Assembly: GCA_029264355.1 (NCBI GenBank)
Contig: JARIBW010000011.1
Span: 1 to 41,498 of the forward strand
DNA length: 41,498 bases
Direction: 5' to 3'
Source of the DNA: Collinsella sp.
GTDB taxonomy: Bacteria > Actinomycetota > Coriobacteriia > Coriobacteriales > Coriobacteriaceae
The translations under genes and the position numbers were made by a program. Of this stretch, positions 21,238-29,078 are shown piece by piece. Each line of letters opens with the position of its first letter. The first letter of the stretch is position 1. The notes beneath the pieces were generated by a model that worked only from the letters and a program-made list of their open reading frames with translations, searched no databases and was not told the DNA's origin.

Positions 21238-21358
21238 GGTTCGAAATATCCGCTATGTGAATCCCTCGAGCGGTTTTCATGGGGTGTGTGTGAGGGTGTT
21301 CGTCGGATGGTACGGTTCTGCGGATTATTTGCGCTACCTGCTCGTTTGGAGTGAGTTC

Positions 21359-22222
21359 ATGTCCGTTCGCATCATCACGGATTCCGGCTCTGAGTACAAG
21401 TCGTCCGATCACCCCGTTCTCGATGTCGTGCCGTTGACGGTCGCGTTCGGCGACGATGTGTACCGCGAGGGCGTGGATATCACCTACGACCAGTTCTACG
21501 AAATGCTCGCCGAGCGTGAGGAGTTTCCCAGCAGCGGGCAGGCGACGCCGTTTCTGTTTCAGGAGGCCCTCGAGCGCGCCCGCGAGGCGGGTGAGGACGT
21601 GGTGGTCATCACCATGTCCAGCCGTCTGTCGGGAACGTACCAAAACGCATGCATGGCGGCCGCCGCCGCCCGCGAGGCGGGGCTCGAGACCGTGCGCGTC
21701 GTCGACAGCCTGAGCATGACGCTCGGCGAGCGAATCGTGGTGCAGTACGCGCTGCACTTGGTCGATGAGGGGCTTGGGGCCAATGAGATCGCCGACGCCT
21801 TGGAAGCGGCGGTACCCCGCGTGCACATCTTCGGCTTGGTGGACACCCTCGAGTATCTCAAGCGGGGAGGGCGCATCTCCGCCGCCGCGGGCGCGGTGGG
21901 CGAGCTGCTTTCCATCAAGCCCGTGATCACCGTGACGGACGGTGAAGTCATCGTGCTGGGCAAGGCACGTGGATCGAAGAAGGGCCGTTCCTTGTTGCAT
22001 CGGGAGATCGATAGGGTCGGCGGCATCGATTTCGGCATGCCCGGGGCATTGGGCTATTCGGGTCTTTCGGACGAGATGCTGCGCAGGTACCTCGAGGAAT
22101 ACCGCAGCGTGTGGGAGGGTGACATCGCCGAAGACGATCTTCCGATTTCCCAGGTCGGAGCCGCAATCGGCGTGCACGTGGGTCCCGGCGGCATCGCGGT
22201 CGCCTTCTTTTCCCCCGCCTAG
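21359..22222 (+). CDS. DegV family fatty-acid-binding protein (1)
   Basis: This 287-residue DegV protein is the type now known in Gram-positives as FakB. FakB presents a fatty acid to the kinase FakA, which makes acyl-phosphate for phospholipid synthesis. Family marks are VRIITDSGSE at the start, FPSSGQATP, MSSRLSGTYQNA (acyl-binding serines), LEYLKRGGRISAAAG, LSIKPVI and the C-terminal HVGPGGIAVAF. The ATG at 21359 has TGGAG upstream. A close paralogue follows after 96 bases. FakA itself is not in the window. Confidence 0.9.
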   Translation: MSVRIITDSGSEYKSSDHPVLDVVPLTVAFGDDVYREGVDITYDQFYEMLAEREEFPSSGQATPFLFQEALERAREAGEDVVVITMSSRLSGTYQNACMAAAAAREAGLETVRVVDSLSMTLGERIVVQYALHLVDEGLGANEIADALEAAVPRVHIFGLVDTLEYLKRGGRISAAAGAVGELLSIKPVITVTDGEVIVLGKARGSKKGRSLLHREIDRVGGIDFGMPGALGYSGLSDEMLRRYLEEYRSVWEGDIAEDDLPISQVGAAIGVHVGPGGIAVAFFSPA

Positions 22223-22270
22223 GACTTGCGCAGCGACAATGTGAATGTCTGATGATGTCGTGAGATAGCG

Positions 22271-22293
22271 GTACACTTTCGCGGAAACTGTAC
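22271..22293. promoter_or_regulatory. near-palindrome upstream of second degV gene
   Basis: GTACACTTTCGCGGAAACTGTAC is almost its own reverse complement, with a half-site GTACACT that recurs at 22290-22296. It lies about 25 bases before the ribosome site of the second DegV gene, in the 96-base gap between the paralogues. It could be an operator, and no regulator can be assigned. Confidence 0.35.
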
Positions 22294-22318
22294 ACTAAAT
22301 ACCCTGAAAGGGGATATG

Positions 22319-23176
22319 ATGGCCGTCCGCATCATCACCGATTCCGGCTCCGATTGCCTGCCGGGCGAACACCCGAACCTCGATGTTTTGCCACTCTCCA
22401 TCGCGTTCGGCGAGACGACTTACAAAGCCGATGTCGATCTCACGCGCGAGCGATTTTACGAGCTGCTCGTCGAGCGCGATGAATTCCCGACGACCGGACA
22501 GGTCAATCCCTATGCCTTCTCGCAGGCGATCTCCCGCGCGCGGGAGGCGGGCGACGACGTGGTGATCCTGGCGCTTTCGAGTAAGCTGTCCGGCACGTAT
22601 CAGAGCGCCGTCACGGCCGCCTCTCAGGTAGATGGGTCCACCGAAGTTCATGTCGTCGACACCAAGAGCGTCACGGTCGGTCAGCACATCCTGGTCGATT
22701 ACGCGCTCCGCCTGGTCGAGGAGGGCCGTTCGGCCGCCGAGGTGGCCGCAGCCGTCGAGGCCGCCGCGGACCGCGTCTGCCTGATCGGCTTGCTCGACAC
22801 CCTCGAGTACTTGAAGCGCGGCGGCCGCATCTCCGCCGCCGCGGGTACTTTGGGGGAGATGCTATCCATCAAGCCGGTCATCACCGTCTCCGATGGGGAA
22901 ATCGCGGTCCTGGGAAAGGCCCGTGGCTCCAAGAACGGTCGCAATTTACTGCGTCAGCAGATCGAGAGCGCGGGCGGCATCGATTTCGACATGCCCGTCA
23001 TGGTCGGCTATAGCGGTCTTTCCGATAAGCTCTTGCGCAAGTACCTCGAGGACAGCCGCTCTGTGTGGGAGGGCGGTATCGCCGAGCAGGACATCCCCTC
23101 CATCCTGGTCGGTGCGACCATCGGGGCGCACGTCGGCCCCGGCGCCATCGCGGTGGCGCACTTCAAGAAGGCATAG
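22319..23176 (+). CDS. DegV family fatty-acid-binding protein (2)
   Basis: This second DegV/FakB-type protein, 285 residues, is clearly a tandem paralogue of the preceding one. Matching segments are VRIITDSGSD, FPTTGQVNP, LSSKLSGTYQSA, LEYLKRGGRISAAAG, LSIKPVITV, KARGSKNGR and HVGPGAIAVAHF. The copies differ in the residues that would line the acyl pocket, so they may prefer different fatty acids, as FakB1 and FakB2 do in staphylococci. Of two adjacent ATG codons I chose 22319, because AAAGGGG is then five bases away rather than two. Confidence 0.9.
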   Translation: MAVRIITDSGSDCLPGEHPNLDVLPLSIAFGETTYKADVDLTRERFYELLVERDEFPTTGQVNPYAFSQAISRAREAGDDVVILALSSKLSGTYQSAVTAASQVDGSTEVHVVDTKSVTVGQHILVDYALRLVEEGRSAAEVAAAVEAAADRVCLIGLLDTLEYLKRGGRISAAAGTLGEMLSIKPVITVSDGEIAVLGKARGSKNGRNLLRQQIESAGGIDFDMPVMVGYSGLSDKLLRKYLEDSRSVWEGGIAEQDIPSILVGATIGAHVGPGAIAVAHFKKA

Positions 23177-23346: not shown

Positions 23347-25038
23347 ATGGCGATTTTCGCTCCCATCGATGCAACCGAGACCCCCGAGTGGGCGGTTCTT
23401 CAGAAGCACCACGACGAACTCGTGGAGAAAGGCATCAGCCTGAAGGATTGGTTCGCCTCCGATCCCGACCGCGTTGAGAAGCTCAGCTATCGGGCCGGTG
23501 ATCTGTACTTCGATCTGTCCAAGAACCTCGTCACCGATGAGACGCTCAGGTTGCTCGTGGACTTGGGTCGCGCCTGCGGCATCGAAGAGCGCCGTGACGC
23601 CATGTTCTCCGGCGAGCACATCAACACCACGGAGGACCGCGCCGTTTTGCACACCGCCCTCCGTCGCCCCGCTGAGCAGAAGGGCGAGCTCATCGTCGAC
23701 GGTCAGGACGTCGTTGCCGATGTCCACGAGGTCCTCGATCGCATGTACGCCTTTGCCGATCGCGTCCGCTCCGGTGAGTGGACGGGCGTCAGCGGTAAGA
23801 AGATCGAGCATGTGGTCTCCATCGGCATCGGTGGCTCCGACCTCGGCCCTGTTATGGTCTACGAGGCCATGAGGCCCTATCTCGACGCCGGTATCGATTG
23901 CCGCTACATCTCCAATATCGACCCGAATGACATGGCCGAGAAGGTGAAGGGCCTCGATGCCGAGACCACGCTCGTCATCATCGTCTCCAAGACGTTCACC
24001 ACGCTCGAGACCCTGACCAACGCGCGCGAGGTCAAGGCTTGGATGCTCGGGCAGCTCCGTGCTTGCGGGGCCGTCGACGGCAGCGTGGAACAGGACGCCG
24101 AGGCCATCGCCAAGCATTTCGTCGCCGTCTCCACCGCCCTGGACCTCGTCGCAGATTTCGGCATCGACCCTGAGAACGCCTTCGGCTTTTGGAATTGGGT
24201 CGGCGGCCGCTACTCCGTTGATTCCGCCGTCGGCCTGTCGCTCATCATCGCCCTCGGGCCTGAGCGCTTCCAGCAGTTCCTGGCGGGCTTCCGAGCTATC
24301 GACGAGTACTTCGAGAGCACGCCGCTCGAGGAGAACGTGGTTGCGCTCATGGGTCTCATGAACGTCTGGTACGTCAACTTCTTCGGTGCCGACACGCATG
24401 CCGTCCTGCCCTATACGCAGTACCTGCACCGGTTCCCGGCTTACTTGCAGCAGCTCACGATGGAGTCCAACGGCAAGCACGTCCGTTGGGACGGCACGCC
24501 TGTCACCTGTCATACCGGCGAGGTTTTCTGGGGTGAGCCCGGCACCAATGGCCAGCATGCGTTCTATCAGTTGATGCATCAGGGCAGCGTCGTGGTTCCC
24601 GCCGACTTCATCGCCTTCGCCAATACCGCCAACCCCTCCGTCGATGAGGGCCAGGATGTGCACGAGCTGTTCCTGGGCAACTTCCTTGCTCAGACCAAGG
24701 CCCTCGCATTCGGCAAGACGGCCGATGAGGTCCGCGCCGAGGGAACGCCCGAGCAGATCGTCCCCGCTCGCGTGTTCGAGGGTAACCGCCCCACGACCTC
24801 TATTTTCGGCGACACGTTGACCCCGTTCGCCCTCGGCGAGCTCATCGCCGTGTACGAGCACATCACATTCGTTCAGGGTACCGTTTGGGGTATCGACTCC
24901 TATGATCAGTGGGGTGTCGAGCTCGGCAAGCAGCTTGCCAAGCAGATCACCCCGGCGTTCCATGACGATGAGGCGCTTGCCGCGCAGGATGCCTCCACCA
25001 AGGCATTGATCGAGTTCTACCGCGCGACGCGCAGGTAG
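23347..25038 (+). CDS. pgi: glucose-6-phosphate isomerase
   Basis: It interconverts glucose 6-phosphate and fructose 6-phosphate in glycolysis and gluconeogenesis. The 563-residue length fits the large PGI type. Motifs: [11 protein letters not shown] (158-168), SKTFTTLET (214-222), the PROSITE-like signature VGGRYS (285-290), [10 protein letters not shown] and EGNRPTTS. A strong TAAGGAGG stands before the ATG at 23347. A possible -10 TAGAAT lies at 23302-23307. It is monocistronic. Glucose 6-phosphate made by the deglycase locus downstream would enter glycolysis through this enzyme. Confidence 0.96.
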
Positions 25039-25116: not shown

Positions 25117-28068
25117 CTATCGCGTCTTGAGGCGATCCTCTTTCGTGTCCATCTCATCTAGCAGGATCGCCCGCAGGGCTTCTTCGCATTCGACGGGATA
25201 TAGGCACCGGGTGTTTGTGACGCCGTTGTATTCCGCGGTGCGTTCGAGGATCCCGAGTTTTTCGCCGCGCGGGGTGACGAGCCAGTCTCCGCCTTGCTTT
25301 TCGATCAGGCCCGCCTCCATGAGCAGCTTGTTGGCCCTATGCGAGCGCATTTTGGGAAAGAGGCCCTTATCGGCCCAATCATCCAGGACTTTTTGGAGGT
25401 ATCTCGGCGCAGGCCCGTCGTCGGCCTCGATGGCGGCGCGCATGGATCTCCGCATGCGGCCCTCGATCTCATCCCGTGCGGGCATTGCATACGCGGCGAT
25501 GTCGAACGTGGGGTCGATGACCGGCCCGTCTTTGCGGCCATGGGAGAGCTGCTGGTCAAGAAGCTCGTCGATCGTCGTGAAGATGCCGGCATAGGGGCCG
25601 TGCGGGTCGAGGTGCTCGGCGAGTTCGCCAGTCTCGAATGCGGTCGTGCCGTTGGTTGCGAGGCGCAGCATCGTGAAGGTGAAGGGGCCGGCGCCGCTCG
25701 GAGGCAGATCTTCGCGCCTGTTGCTCGCGAGCACTTGCGCCCCCAAGTCGCGCGCGACGGCATCTTTGCGACGATAGCAGGCTTGCCGACGCGCAAGCGC
25801 CTCCTCATCGTCATCGGGGATGACGGGGCTTGTATAGCGGTGCTGGCCGCCATCGACCTCGATGCACATCACGATCCTCAGGGTGCGGACATCGTAGATG
25901 ACGAGGTCGAAGTGGGCCTCGTGCTTCTTGTCGTCGCTGCGGACGAAGAACTCCTTGTCTTGTGAGGTGAACTCGGCGTCGTCGGTGAGGTAGTGCCTGA
26001 GCATGGCCGGGGAGAAGCAGCGCGAGAGAGGTACGTTGCATGCGGCCGCAAGTTCGCGCCCTGCGAGGTCAAGGCCGCCAAGGGCCTTGCAGAGAACGAG
26101 CTCGGCGGAGGACTCGTCGCTATCGACGTATGAGCGGATGGCAGGCGTCTCGTCGAATATGGAGACAAGCTCGGCACGGTGGAATCCATGTGCATGGTTG
26201 CCCACGGGGAAGCCGACCTCGCCCGTGAACGCGGGAGAGGCGGGGTCCGTGCGCCGACGGACATAGTCGACGAGCTTTTGCAGGAATCGCTCGCGCAGCT
26301 CGCGCGCGGCACGGTCCTTGGCGGAGAGCCGGCTGGGGGCGACGCCCGCCGAGGGAGGGATGTAGCCGCCGGTGAGGTCGATCTGCGTCCTCTTTGACAT
26401 GAGATCTGAGGAGCAGATGACCACGAGTTCGTCCTTGGCGCGCGATACGGCGACGTTGATGAGGGGTTTACCCTGGGACCAGGGCCAATCCCAGTCGCCG
26501 TCTTCGACCGGCAGCAGATAGACCGCGTTGTACTCCTGTCCTTGGGTCTTGTGGATCGTCATCCCGGTCTTTTCCCAGGCATCCCTGGCCTCTTCTTCGT
26601 CTGCCCGGAAAAGGCGCTCGACGACCTCGGGCCCCTCCTCGGAGACGAGGCGGTCGTAGAGAGCTTCGAGTTGTCCGCGGAAAGGCGAGATGATGCGCAC
26701 AGAGTAGGAGCGGTCCGCCTCGAGCCGGGCGCGCAGGGCGGGCCATTCCTCGTGCATGAAGATCTCGATCTGCTTGCGATTCTCCTTGCTCGACTGCGGG
26801 GGCCTGCGTTTTGCGCGCGATTCCGAGGGGGATGTTTCTTTTGCGGCGCCGATGCGACCGGTGCGGTGCGGCTCCCAATAGTTGCCCGCGAACCAACGGA
26901 TGCGGACGGGGGTTTGGACCGACGTGTCGAATCGGGGGGTGCGAACGACAAGGCCCTCACCGCGAGGTCCGTAGACCTCCTCGCTGCAGAAGCCGATGAT
27001 TCCCGGATGGCAGCGGAAGTGCTCGTTTAGGAAGGTGCACGGTACCCCGATCGGCCCGAAGACCTGCTGGACGGAGGCCAGGATGCTCATGCCATCACCC
27101 GTGGTCGCGTCTTGCAGGGCGTAGGGTGAGTCCGGGCTGGGCACCGGGACGCCCTCTGCTTTGGCGGCGCGCGCGGCCGATGCGGCCGAGCTCGCGTTGT
27201 AGACGGGCGGCAGCTGCTCGACATCGCCCACCAGCACGATGCGACGTGCGCTGCTCATGGCGAGCAAAGCGAGTGGCGGCGCGCATTGCGAGGCCTCGTC
27301 CATGATCAGATAGTCGTAGAGGAACTCGGCTCCGTCGCGGAAGCATTTCTTGAGCGAGTGGATGGTGCTCGTGACGAACGGGCGCTCCCGCAAGAAGCGG
27401 CTGGCCGTCACACGGGGCTCCCAGCCGCCGGCGCCGTAACGATCGTTGCGGCGGGCCTCGGCGTCACGGCCCGTGTCAAACTGGGGTCCCTCGGGGTGCG
27501 CCTCGTTCCAGGCCAGGCGGTTTTCGAGTTTGCCCAGGGCGGCGTAGGATGAGAAGACGCGTAGGCGGTTGGGGGATGGGCCCCCGTTCGAGGAGGCGTA
27601 GCCGGCGACTTTCTTGGTGATGTTGGCGATGGCCTCGCCGTTGGTGGAGACGACCGCCACGGTTTTCCCCCGTGCGATCATGCAGGACACCATGTTGAGG
27701 ATGGTCTCGGTCTTGCCGGTGCCGGGGGGTCCCTGGACCAGCGAGACATCGGATTCGAGCGATCGGCGCACCGCGAGTCTTTGGCGCTCGTTCAGGCCGT
27801 AGGGCCCCTCGATGAGCGCGGCGTCCACTTCGGCATCGCTCGCCTCGCCGAAGCGGATCCGGGCTTGAGCGGCCTCATCTCCCAGGTAGGCGCGGCACAC
27901 GACGTTTAACTTCCCCTTCGAGGCGAGGCCATGCGACCCATCGGCGGCGGGGTCGCGGTAGAACCAGTCGATTTCCCACGGCGGAGTTTTGCCTCCTTCC
28001 CCGTTGGGGAAGGAGGAGGCGTGCGCGGCGGCTCGGAAGTAGGAGAGGTTGTTGGAGAAATTGGACAT
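25117..28068 (-). CDS. SF1 helicase with C-terminal nuclease-like domain
   Basis: This 983-residue protein starts at 28068 (GGGAG upstream). Residues 85-560 form an Upf1-like superfamily 1 helicase: GPPGTGKT (113-120), DEAS (257-260), GDVEQLPP (281-288), NEHFRCHP (348-355), TIHKTQGQE (504-512) and VAVSRAKDELVV (539-550). Residues about 655-800 look like the DUF2726 / PD-(D/E)XK-type fold, with E656, D721 in HFDLVIYD, E737-V-D739 in IEVDGGQHR and K768. The last 110 residues resemble a KilA-C/winged-helix module (ANKLLMEAGLIEK, GDWLVTPRGEKLG). It would unwind and probably cut nucleic acid. A defence or repair role is an inference. It stands alone, convergent with pgi. Confidence 0.85.
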   Translation of the reverse strand: MSNFSNNLSYFRAAAHASSFPNGEGGKTPPWEIDWFYRDPAADGSHGLASKGKLNVVCRAYLGDEAAQARIRFGEASDAEVDAALIEGPYGLNERQRLAVRRSLESDVSLVQGPPGTGKTETILNMVSCMIARGKTVAVVSTNGEAIANITKKVAGYASSNGGPSPNRLRVFSSYAALGKLENRLAWNEAHPEGPQFDTGRDAEARRNDRYGAGGWEPRVTASRFLRERPFVTSTIHSLKKCFRDGAEFLYDYLIMDEASQCAPPLALLAMSSARRIVLVGDVEQLPPVYNASSAASAARAAKAEGVPVPSPDSPYALQDATTGDGMSILASVQQVFGPIGVPCTFLNEHFRCHPGIIGFCSEEVYGPRGEGLVVRTPRFDTSVQTPVRIRWFAGNYWEPHRTGRIGAAKETSPSESRAKRRPPQSSKENRKQIEIFMHEEWPALRARLEADRSYSVRIISPFRGQLEALYDRLVSEEGPEVVERLFRADEEEARDAWEKTGMTIHKTQGQEYNAVYLLPVEDGDWDWPWSQGKPLINVAVSRAKDELVVICSSDLMSKRTQIDLTGGYIPPSAGVAPSRLSAKDRAARELRERFLQKLVDYVRRRTDPASPAFTGEVGFPVGNHAHGFHRAELVSIFDETPAIRSYVDSDESSAELVLCKALGGLDLAGRELAAACNVPLSRCFSPAMLRHYLTDDAEFTSQDKEFFVRSDDKKHEAHFDLVIYDVRTLRIVMCIEVDGGQHRYTSPVIPDDDEEALARRQACYRRKDAVARDLGAQVLASNRREDLPPSGAGPFTFTMLRLATNGTTAFETGELAEHLDPHGPYAGIFTTIDELLDQQLSHGRKDGPVIDPTFDIAAYAMPARDEIEGRMRRSMRAAIEADDGPAPRYLQKVLDDWADKGLFPKMRSHRANKLLMEAGLIEKQGGDWLVTPRGEKLGILERTAEYNGVTNTRCLYPVECEEALRAILLDEMDTKEDRLKTR

Positions 28069-28241
28069 GCAGACTCCCTGCGGTTGCGTGCGACGCTCCC
28101 TCATCCGGCTTGATCGGAGTTCAATTGTAGCCTTCCCCGTCACGGCGAAATCATCGGGGCGCCGGAACGTCGTCTCATTTGAAGACGAGATCAAGCGGTA
28201 CTATATTTCAGCATAATGTGTTTCTCAGAAAGGCTTCACGC

Positions 28242-29078
28242 ATGGCAATCAAGGCTATCGCCCTGGATATCGACGGCACGCTCACGAACGACCGGAAGAT
28301 CGTCACGCCCCGTACGAGGGAGGCGCTGCTCGCGGCCCAGGATGCGGGCGTCAAATTGATTCTCTCCTCGGGCCGCCCCATCCAGGGTCTTCGCGCCATC
28401 GCCTCGGACCTCGGGCTGGACGCGCACGACGGCCTGCTTGTGGCCTTCAACGGTGCCCATGTGGTCGACGCTCAGACGGATGAGGTCCTTTACGATCAGC
28501 CCATCGATGTCGACACGATGCGCTCCCTCATCGGGCACATCCGTCAATTTGACGTCATTCCCTGGATTACGAGGGGGAGGAACCTGTTCGTCGAGCGCTC
28601 CTCGCGCCATGTCATCCGCTATCGCGGGGCCGATCTCGACATCGTCGAGTACGAGCGCAGCATGTGCGATCTGGAGCTGTGCGAGATCGACGACCTGCTC
28701 GACGTGTGCGACGTTCCGCATGACAAGCTCCTGTGCGCCGGTGAGCCGGAATACCTGCAGGAACACTGGCGCGCCATGGGCGGCCCGTTCGAGGGTCGGC
28801 TGTCCGCCATGTTTACCGCCGATTTCTATTACGAGTTCATGGCGCCCGGTATCAACAAGGGGCGCGCTCTTGCGAATGCCCTGTCCGTGCTCGACATCCA
28901 TGCCTCCGAGGTCGTGGCGTTCGGCGACGGTCAAAACGACGTGTCGATGATCGAGTGGGCGGGCATGGGCGTGGCCATGGCGAACGCGGTGGACGAGGCC
29001 AAGGCCGCCGCCGATATGGTGACCGCCTCGAATAACGAGGACGGCATCGCGTTGGCCCTGGAGAAGATCATGGGATAG
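28242..29078 (+). CDS. Cof-type HAD phosphatase
   Basis: A haloacid-dehalogenase-superfamily hydrolase of 278 residues, Cof/YidA subgroup. Motif I is ALDIDGTL with nucleophile D9 and acid/base D11, motif II is ILSSGRP, the conserved lysine is in GINKGRAL, and motif IV is VAFGDGQND. A large C2 cap lies between motifs II and III. Such enzymes remove phosphate from sugar phosphates or flavin/PLP-type compounds, but the substrate is not readable. AGAAAGG precedes the ATG at 28242. It is followed 35 bases later by a second HAD gene, probably as one unit. Confidence 0.88.
   Translation: MAIKAIALDIDGTLTNDRKIVTPRTREALLAAQDAGVKLILSSGRPIQGLRAIASDLGLDAHDGLLVAFNGAHVVDAQTDEVLYDQPIDVDTMRSLIGHIRQFDVIPWITRGRNLFVERSSRHVIRYRGADLDIVEYERSMCDLELCEIDDLLDVCDVPHDKLLCAGEPEYLQEHWRAMGGPFEGRLSAMFTADFYYEFMAPGINKGRALANALSVLDIHASEVVAFGDGQNDVSMIEWAGMGVAMANAVDEAKAAADMVTASNNEDGIALALEKIMG

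Follow-up and report, generated by a model that had tools for sequence, protein, structure and literature searches.

A helicase-nuclease gene of Collinsella sp., apparently orphaned from a ClpP-VirD4 cassette of which it was the last gene

Introduction

A long open reading frame lies between two metabolic genes of Collinsella sp. in the window analyzed here, which is the whole stretch of 41,498 nucleotides of contig JARIBW010000011.1. The initial annotation had described it, by eye, as a Upf1-like helicase fused to a probable nuclease and to a tail resembling phage antirepressors, carried on a stand-alone gene and typical of anti-phage or repair effectors. The frame itself exists where it had been placed. 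It runs on the minus strand, which the initial annotation did not specify, from 28068 to 25117, and it is intact, with 983 codons and zero internal stops. The gene and its surroundings are as follows.

25117..28068, minus strand: complete gene for an SF1 helicase - Vsr/DUF2726-type nuclease - winged-helix protein of 983 aa; full-length orthologues exist
23347..25038, plus strand: glucose-6-phosphate isomerase (PGI), downstream neighbour and marker of the conserved locus (NF001211, E 9e-240)
28069..28241, no strand: 173-bp gap, the site of ClpP and VirD4-like genes in relatives (by comparison with these)
28242..29078, plus strand: Cof-type HAD hydrolase, upstream divergent neighbour and the other marker of the locus (TIGR00099, E 2e-54)

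Elsewhere in the window, two adjoining genes at 21296-23176, DegV-like by eye, present near-identical stretches near their starts (VRIITDSGS...), apparently as the result of a tandem duplication.

Results

Domain composition of the window protein

Judged from its sequence, the window protein is an SF1 UPF1-like helicase. AAA_11 (E 2e-24) and AAA_12 (E 9e-11) both score above their Pfam cut-offs, and the helicase motifs are all intact (GPPGTGKTET at 113-122, IMDEASQ at 255-261, VGDVEQLPP at 280-288, TIHKTQGQE at 504-512 and NVAVSRA at 538-544), which bears out the Upf1-like assignment made at the outset. By sequence, the closest chains of known structure are SF1 helicases of the SEN1/UPF1/DNA2 type, and among the PADLOC models MkoC ranks best (E 8e-42), covering the helicase part only.

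26344..27798, minus strand: SF1 UPF1-like helicase core, residues 91-575 (AAA_11/AAA_12 above Pfam cut-off; DNA2, UPF1 and SEN1 chains by sequence)
27706..27732, minus strand: Walker A GPPGTGKTE, residues 113-121 (by sequence; K119 invariant in 14/14 orthologues covering the region)
27289..27300, minus strand: Walker B DEAS, residues 257-260 (by sequence; D257 and E258 invariant in 14/14 orthologues covering the region)
26437..26457, minus strand: helicase motif VI NVAVSRA, residues 538-544 (by sequence; R543 invariant in the orthologue alignment)

The same frame continues into the second half of the proposed fusion, a domain of Vsr/DUF2726 type.

25654..26163, minus strand: PD-(D/E)xK nuclease domain, Vsr/DUF2726 type, residues 636-805 (profile links; fold match 1vsr, Z 6.7)
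26101..26103, minus strand: E656, glutamate of the N-terminal helix of the nuclease (invariant, 51 sequences)
25906..25908, minus strand: D721, predicted catalytic/metal residue (invariant, 51 sequences)
25852..25860, minus strand: E737-x-D739, predicted catalytic residues (invariant, 51 sequences)
25765..25767, minus strand: K768, predicted catalytic lysine (invariant, 51 sequences)

The motifs HFDLVIYD and IEVDGGQHR and the later K768 are found where the initial annotation had placed them, and E656, D721, E737, D739 and K768 are invariant in all 15 orthologues and remain so with 36 distant relatives added to the alignment (51 rows). The window protein as a whole gives a weak hint of DUF2726 at residues 716-744 (E 0.085) and does not reach the gathering score of PF10881 (24.7), with 13.0 bits for the complete protein and 14.6 for the fragment. 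The family is matched by 7/7 orthologue C-terminal fragments (best E 3e-5) and by 25/25 distant relatives (best E 4e-18), and the profile of the orthologues aligns with that of these relatives at 99.1% in hhalign (E 3.9e-19). Given this link to a family that scores uniformly as DUF2726, the nuclease match lies far beyond chance; since the window protein itself falls below the Pfam cut-off, we name it a distant Vsr/DUF2726-type nuclease and not a DUF2726 member. Hence, the DUF2726/PD-(D/E)XK-like nuclease first proposed holds through intermediates and fold, and direct family membership does not.

Structure prediction is congruent with the profile searches. An earlier model built from 7 sequences was poor (pLDDT 66) and its Foldseek matches were not significant; residues 538-983 modelled with 51 sequences reached a pLDDT of 85 and a pTM of 0.81. 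Foldseek against the PDB with the latter model yielded no match at E<0.001, and it is in the re-alignment (VIA) of its PDB candidates that Vsr endonuclease ranks first (Z 6.7, 107 residues, model 116-307), followed by DrdV, SgrAI, BstEII, BpuSI and NucC, with Z 5-6.7 for the top rows. A sequence-profile search of solved structures gave no significant match to the nuclease or winged-helix parts. These Z values are middling, below 8, and the fold call therefore draws jointly on motif, profile link and model, which support a predicted REase-like fold of the Vsr-type PD-(D/E)xK superfamily in the C-terminal part.

The last module of the protein is also real, being conserved (about residues 886-983) in 13 of the 15 orthologues, with the other two stopping before it.

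25120..25413, minus strand: C-terminal winged-helix module, KilA-C-like, residues 886-983 (kept in 13/15 orthologues; pLDDT about 64-96; hhalign against ANT 87.5%)

Its resemblance to the KilA-C domain of phage antirepressors (ANT, PF03374), proposed from the letters alone, fared less uniformly. Pfam ANT was not matched in 7/7 members examined at E<10, and a PHROGs search with the module found nothing. When compared profile to profile with 17 ANT domains taken from related genomes, by contrast, the module scored 87.5% (E 4e-6), or 82% from the orthologues alone, against at most 2% in column shuffles (n=100). As control winged helices, MarR gave 37-66% and PadR 8-19%, versus 82-88% for ANT, so that among the three winged-helix families compared ANT is the best match, favoured over PadR and less clearly over MarR. 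Subsets of the ANT set on their own gave 40% or less, and the KilA-C link is for this reason suggestive and not secure. Among the best matches in the BFVD viral fold library are DUF2726 proteins along with several antirepressors, a KilAC protein included, none at E<0.001 and with the aligned residues not given. A difference from the phage proteins is that the module is here fused to a helicase-nuclease and not to an antirepressor. If the likeness is genuine, the tail would represent a module that phage regulators and host conflict proteins have in common.

Other SF1 helicases of the order also carry this module (L250, L251 and L252). At L249 (5050-6618 and 8640-12176) two further proteins, an FtsH-like M41 protease and one of 522 aa, have it close to their N-termini. 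At L251 (1256-12038) five adjoining genes encode a UvrD-PDDEXK protein, an FtsH-like AAA-peptidase M41, the SF1 helicase with this winged helix, an HD protein and a DUF2726-like nuclease, and thus form another protease-helicase-nuclease set.

Distribution, selection and defence neighbourhood

Full-length or near-full orthologues are present in 4/65 genomes of the family, and orthologues with a full or near-full domain set in about 15/395 Coriobacteriales genomes; a phylum-wide sample (396 genomes) returned weak matches only, with nothing clear outside this order. Such patchy occurrence, as opposed to strict core-genome conservation, marks the gene as accessory and fits the defence context initially suggested. 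The helicase-nuclease part is shared with proteins of ~910 aa from Bacillota and Bacteroidota, which are far more widespread, and plasmid collections, phage collections and viral contigs contain distant cousins only. One distant relative, on a Parabacteroides plasmid, adjoins SNF2, N-6 methylase and TIR genes.

A full-length copy with 69% identity to the window protein is present in C. intestinalis DSM 13280. Between the two, dN/dS is 0.19 overall, with 0.13 for the helicase, 0.29 for the nuclease and 0.21 for the winged helix, and the linker (811-885) evolves fast (0.42); these are rough values, obtained pairwise by the simple Nei-Gojobori method with dS above 1. The purifying selection that they reveal argues against simple decay.

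A survey of neighbours, proposed in the initial annotation, located restriction, Abi or CRISPR genes near 4/8 Eggerthellaceae orthologues (L116, L241, L244 and L246). The neighbours are a type I MTase with a HEC-06-like gene, Cas3/Cas8c (Cas type I-C), a type II REase with its MTase, and AbiEii with a type IIG enzyme. A frameshift divides the orthologue at L241 (G319), next to which lie genes for an AbiE-type toxin and a type IIG restriction enzyme and integrase-like genes. The other four Eggerthellaceae copies occupy one common locus without clear defence genes, and the window copy has no defence gene adjacent to it.

A partner cassette and its apparent loss in the window

In each of five genomes, at loci distinct from one another, the gene comes last in a co-directional cluster whose other products include a ClpP-like protease and a soluble, VirD4-like ATPase.

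L001 8007-12919; L112 6243-11141; L247 8674-14510; L248 4403-10441; L245 5771-11673, co-directional: ClpP-like and soluble VirD4-like genes with the helicase-nuclease gene, at different chromosomal loci

C. intestinalis has this arrangement at the same PGI-side locus as the window, with a ClpP-like gene (199 aa), a VirD4-like gene (448 aa) and then the orthologue on one strand, separated by 2 and 33 bp. The same trio adjoins EF-Tu in G039, and in G223, G196 and G235 the three genes share one co-directional cluster with extra genes. Most members retain the Ser and His motifs of ClpP and the Walker A of the ATPase, which scores against the CD1115 VirD4 conjugation family and in which a hydropathy scan made no transmembrane segment evident. 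An operon of this kind is unusual in that its VirD4-like ATPase is an orphan and its ClpP-like protease a second, catalytically intact one. In the window, the gene sits between the PGI and HAD hydrolase genes, its neighbours being metabolic; the 173-bp gap holds, by eye, no remnant of either partner, the VirD4-like gene has no match anywhere in the genome and the only ClpP there is a distant one (35% identical).

The tree pairs the window copy with that of C. intestinalis (100/100) inside a mostly partnered clade (95/92); G196, also partnered, groups with the Eggerthellaceae copies, though its branch is long. Because it nests among partnered copies and sits where relatives keep the protease-ATPase pair, the window gene was apparently once the last member of a ClpP-VirD4-helicase/nuclease cassette and is now an orphan. 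The stand-alone gene initially described is thus an accurate account of the window copy and not of its relatives, in five of which the gene belongs to an operon, making isolation the derived state here.

The pair also occurs without the helicase-nuclease in about 18 Collinsella genomes (at the PGI locus in those examined), and at the EF-Tu locus G058 has the pair only and G001 the helicase only. Most simply, this distribution would reflect an ancestral cassette whose parts were lost repeatedly; alternatively, these loci may be hotspots collecting defence genes. Within the family, the helicase is present in 4/65 genomes and the pair in 23/65, with an overlap of 2 where about 1.4 is expected. 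This absence of enrichment at the level of presence counts against the partnership, and the case for the latter is built on adjacency and phylogeny.

Several further genomes encode, after the pair, a small protein bearing a GID...FQVKT motif, which looks PD-(D/E)xK-like by eye and has no Pfam match. In L190 (8485-9748), L192, L193 and L195, which belong to other families, the pair precedes a gene of ~190-227 aa and a GID...FQVKT gene of ~213 aa, possibly a stand-alone PD-(D/E)xK nuclease. At L247 (11270-12574), a 434-aa gene between VirD4 and helicase carries the S1/CSD domain of TOTE conflict systems (E 5e-15). Most other cassette genes have no Pfam name.

Discussion

Proposed function and alternative explanations

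The window gene encodes an accessory helicase-nuclease that we regard, with somewhat better than even confidence, as an enzyme directed against foreign DNA or phages, inferring activity, substrate, coupling and defence role from the helicase domains, the nuclease evidence, the patchiness, the defence neighbours, the partner operon, the tree, the dN/dS of 0.19 and the precedents discussed below. The UPF1-like SF1 motor would load on a nucleic-acid structure, such as single-stranded or abnormal DNA (or RNA), and translocate with ATP, and the fused Vsr/DUF2726-type nuclease would cut nucleic acid by means of D721/E737-x-D739/K768 and a divalent metal. The KilA-C-like winged helix may bind nucleic acid or a partner and help to target or restrain the enzyme. 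In this order the family probably started out in an operon alongside genes for a soluble VirD4/HerA-like ATPase and a ClpP-like serine protease; with these partners lost, the copy in the window may work alone, as in the Eggerthellaceae, or be the surviving effector of a broken cassette. Against a defence role we count the metabolic neighbours of the window copy, with no defence gene adjacent, and the four Eggerthellaceae copies at a locus without clear defence genes. The vertical conservation of the locus between the window and C. intestinalis counts likewise, for it would also fit a housekeeping or repair function.

A more specific form of the defence reading can be postulated tentatively, as a possibility that we would not yet bet on: an undescribed multi-gene defence system of the Coriobacteriales, composed of the ClpP-like protease, the soluble VirD4/HerA-like ATPase and an exchangeable nuclease effector, in which infection might prompt the protease to switch on or eliminate a component. 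The effector would be the SF1 helicase-Vsr-winged-helix protein here, orphaned in the window, and apparently the small stand-alone PD-(D/E)xK-like protein in other genomes.

It is unlikely, in our estimate, that the protein is instead a DNA-repair or replication-fork enzyme, a DNA2-like helicase-nuclease with no specific anti-phage role. The DNA2/UPF1-type SF1 core with its fused PD-(D/E)xK nuclease, the presence of DNA2 among the best sequence matches of solved structure, the single locus kept across two species (that of the window and C. intestinalis) and the strong purifying selection would all agree with repair, but the gene is absent from 61/65 genomes of the family, its nuclease is of Vsr/DUF2726 and not of DNA2 type, and several orthologues reside in defence islands. 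Quite improbable is an origin as a degraded mobile or conjugation-derived element, whose coupling ATPase, ClpP and helicase-nuclease would be remnants serving to process the DNA of the element. The CD1115 VirD4 score of the partner ATPase and the mixing of cassette contents between loci point in that direction, whereas in the cassettes examined we noticed no relaxase, T4SS or integrase, the ATPases lack a transmembrane segment in the hydropathy scan and the cassettes occupy fixed chromosomal loci adjoining PGI or EF-Tu in many species. That the window gene is a decaying orphan, without present function after partner loss, is very improbable: the genome-wide lack of the VirD4-like partner, with only a distant ClpP left, and the fast linker (dN/dS 0.42) are outweighed by the intact frame and catalytic motifs, by domain dN/dS values of 0.13-0.29 (which, being pairwise, also cover the time before the loss) and by the persistence of partnerless orthologues in the Eggerthellaceae.

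Comparison with known systems

The accessory, probably anti-phage helicase-nuclease favoured here has several relatives in architecture. The ~910-aa AAA_11/AAA_12 and DUF2726 proteins of Bacillota and Bacteroidota, annotated as 'AAA domain-containing protein', have a homologous helicase and nuclease in the same order and with the same invariant E/D/ExD/K residues, but they carry an N-terminal extension of about 90 residues and stop after the nuclease, lacking a winged helix. MkoC of Mokosh type II is likewise an SF1 helicase fused to a C-terminal nuclease, which there is of the phospholipase-D type; Mokosh type II was rejected for the window protein, which has no PLD match in Pfam and a nuclease of Vsr/DUF2726 type instead. 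The anti-phage proteins Hhe and ProA of NCBIfam share the SF1 helicase part, and identity with either was rejected because the window protein scores far below their cut-offs (51 of 2000 and 62 of 1500 bits).

The order SF1 helicase, Vsr-type nuclease, wHTH is that of giant HEPN/transglutaminase-SF1 helicase-Vsr-wHTH proteins, which have been proposed to recognize invading DNA without modification genes (PMC3710099); the window protein lacks the HEPN or transglutaminase part. In a similar vein, CnuH-Vsr of Type III-B CoCoNuT is a UPF1-like SF1 helicase fused to a Vsr-like nuclease (PMC11090510), its fusion being devoid of the wHTH that the window protein has. Membership in CoCoNuT III-B was rejected, since PGI and HAD hydrolase genes adjoin the window gene and no McrB-type GTPase does.

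The helicase-Vsr-winged-helix architecture hence has precedents (PMC3710099, PMC11090510), and the protease-ATPase partnership was not found described in the literature searched. That search extended to few subscription papers, which makes the 'undescribed' status of the partnership weak; it returned nothing relevant on ClpP-VirD4 defence operons and did not find the TOTE conflict term. Helicase-nuclease fusions are a recurrent design of bacterial defence, and one more is not surprising by itself; if protease, ATPase and helicase-nuclease do form one system, it would link regulated proteolysis to a DNA-cutting effector in common bacteria of the human gut, and would do so by a testable mechanism.
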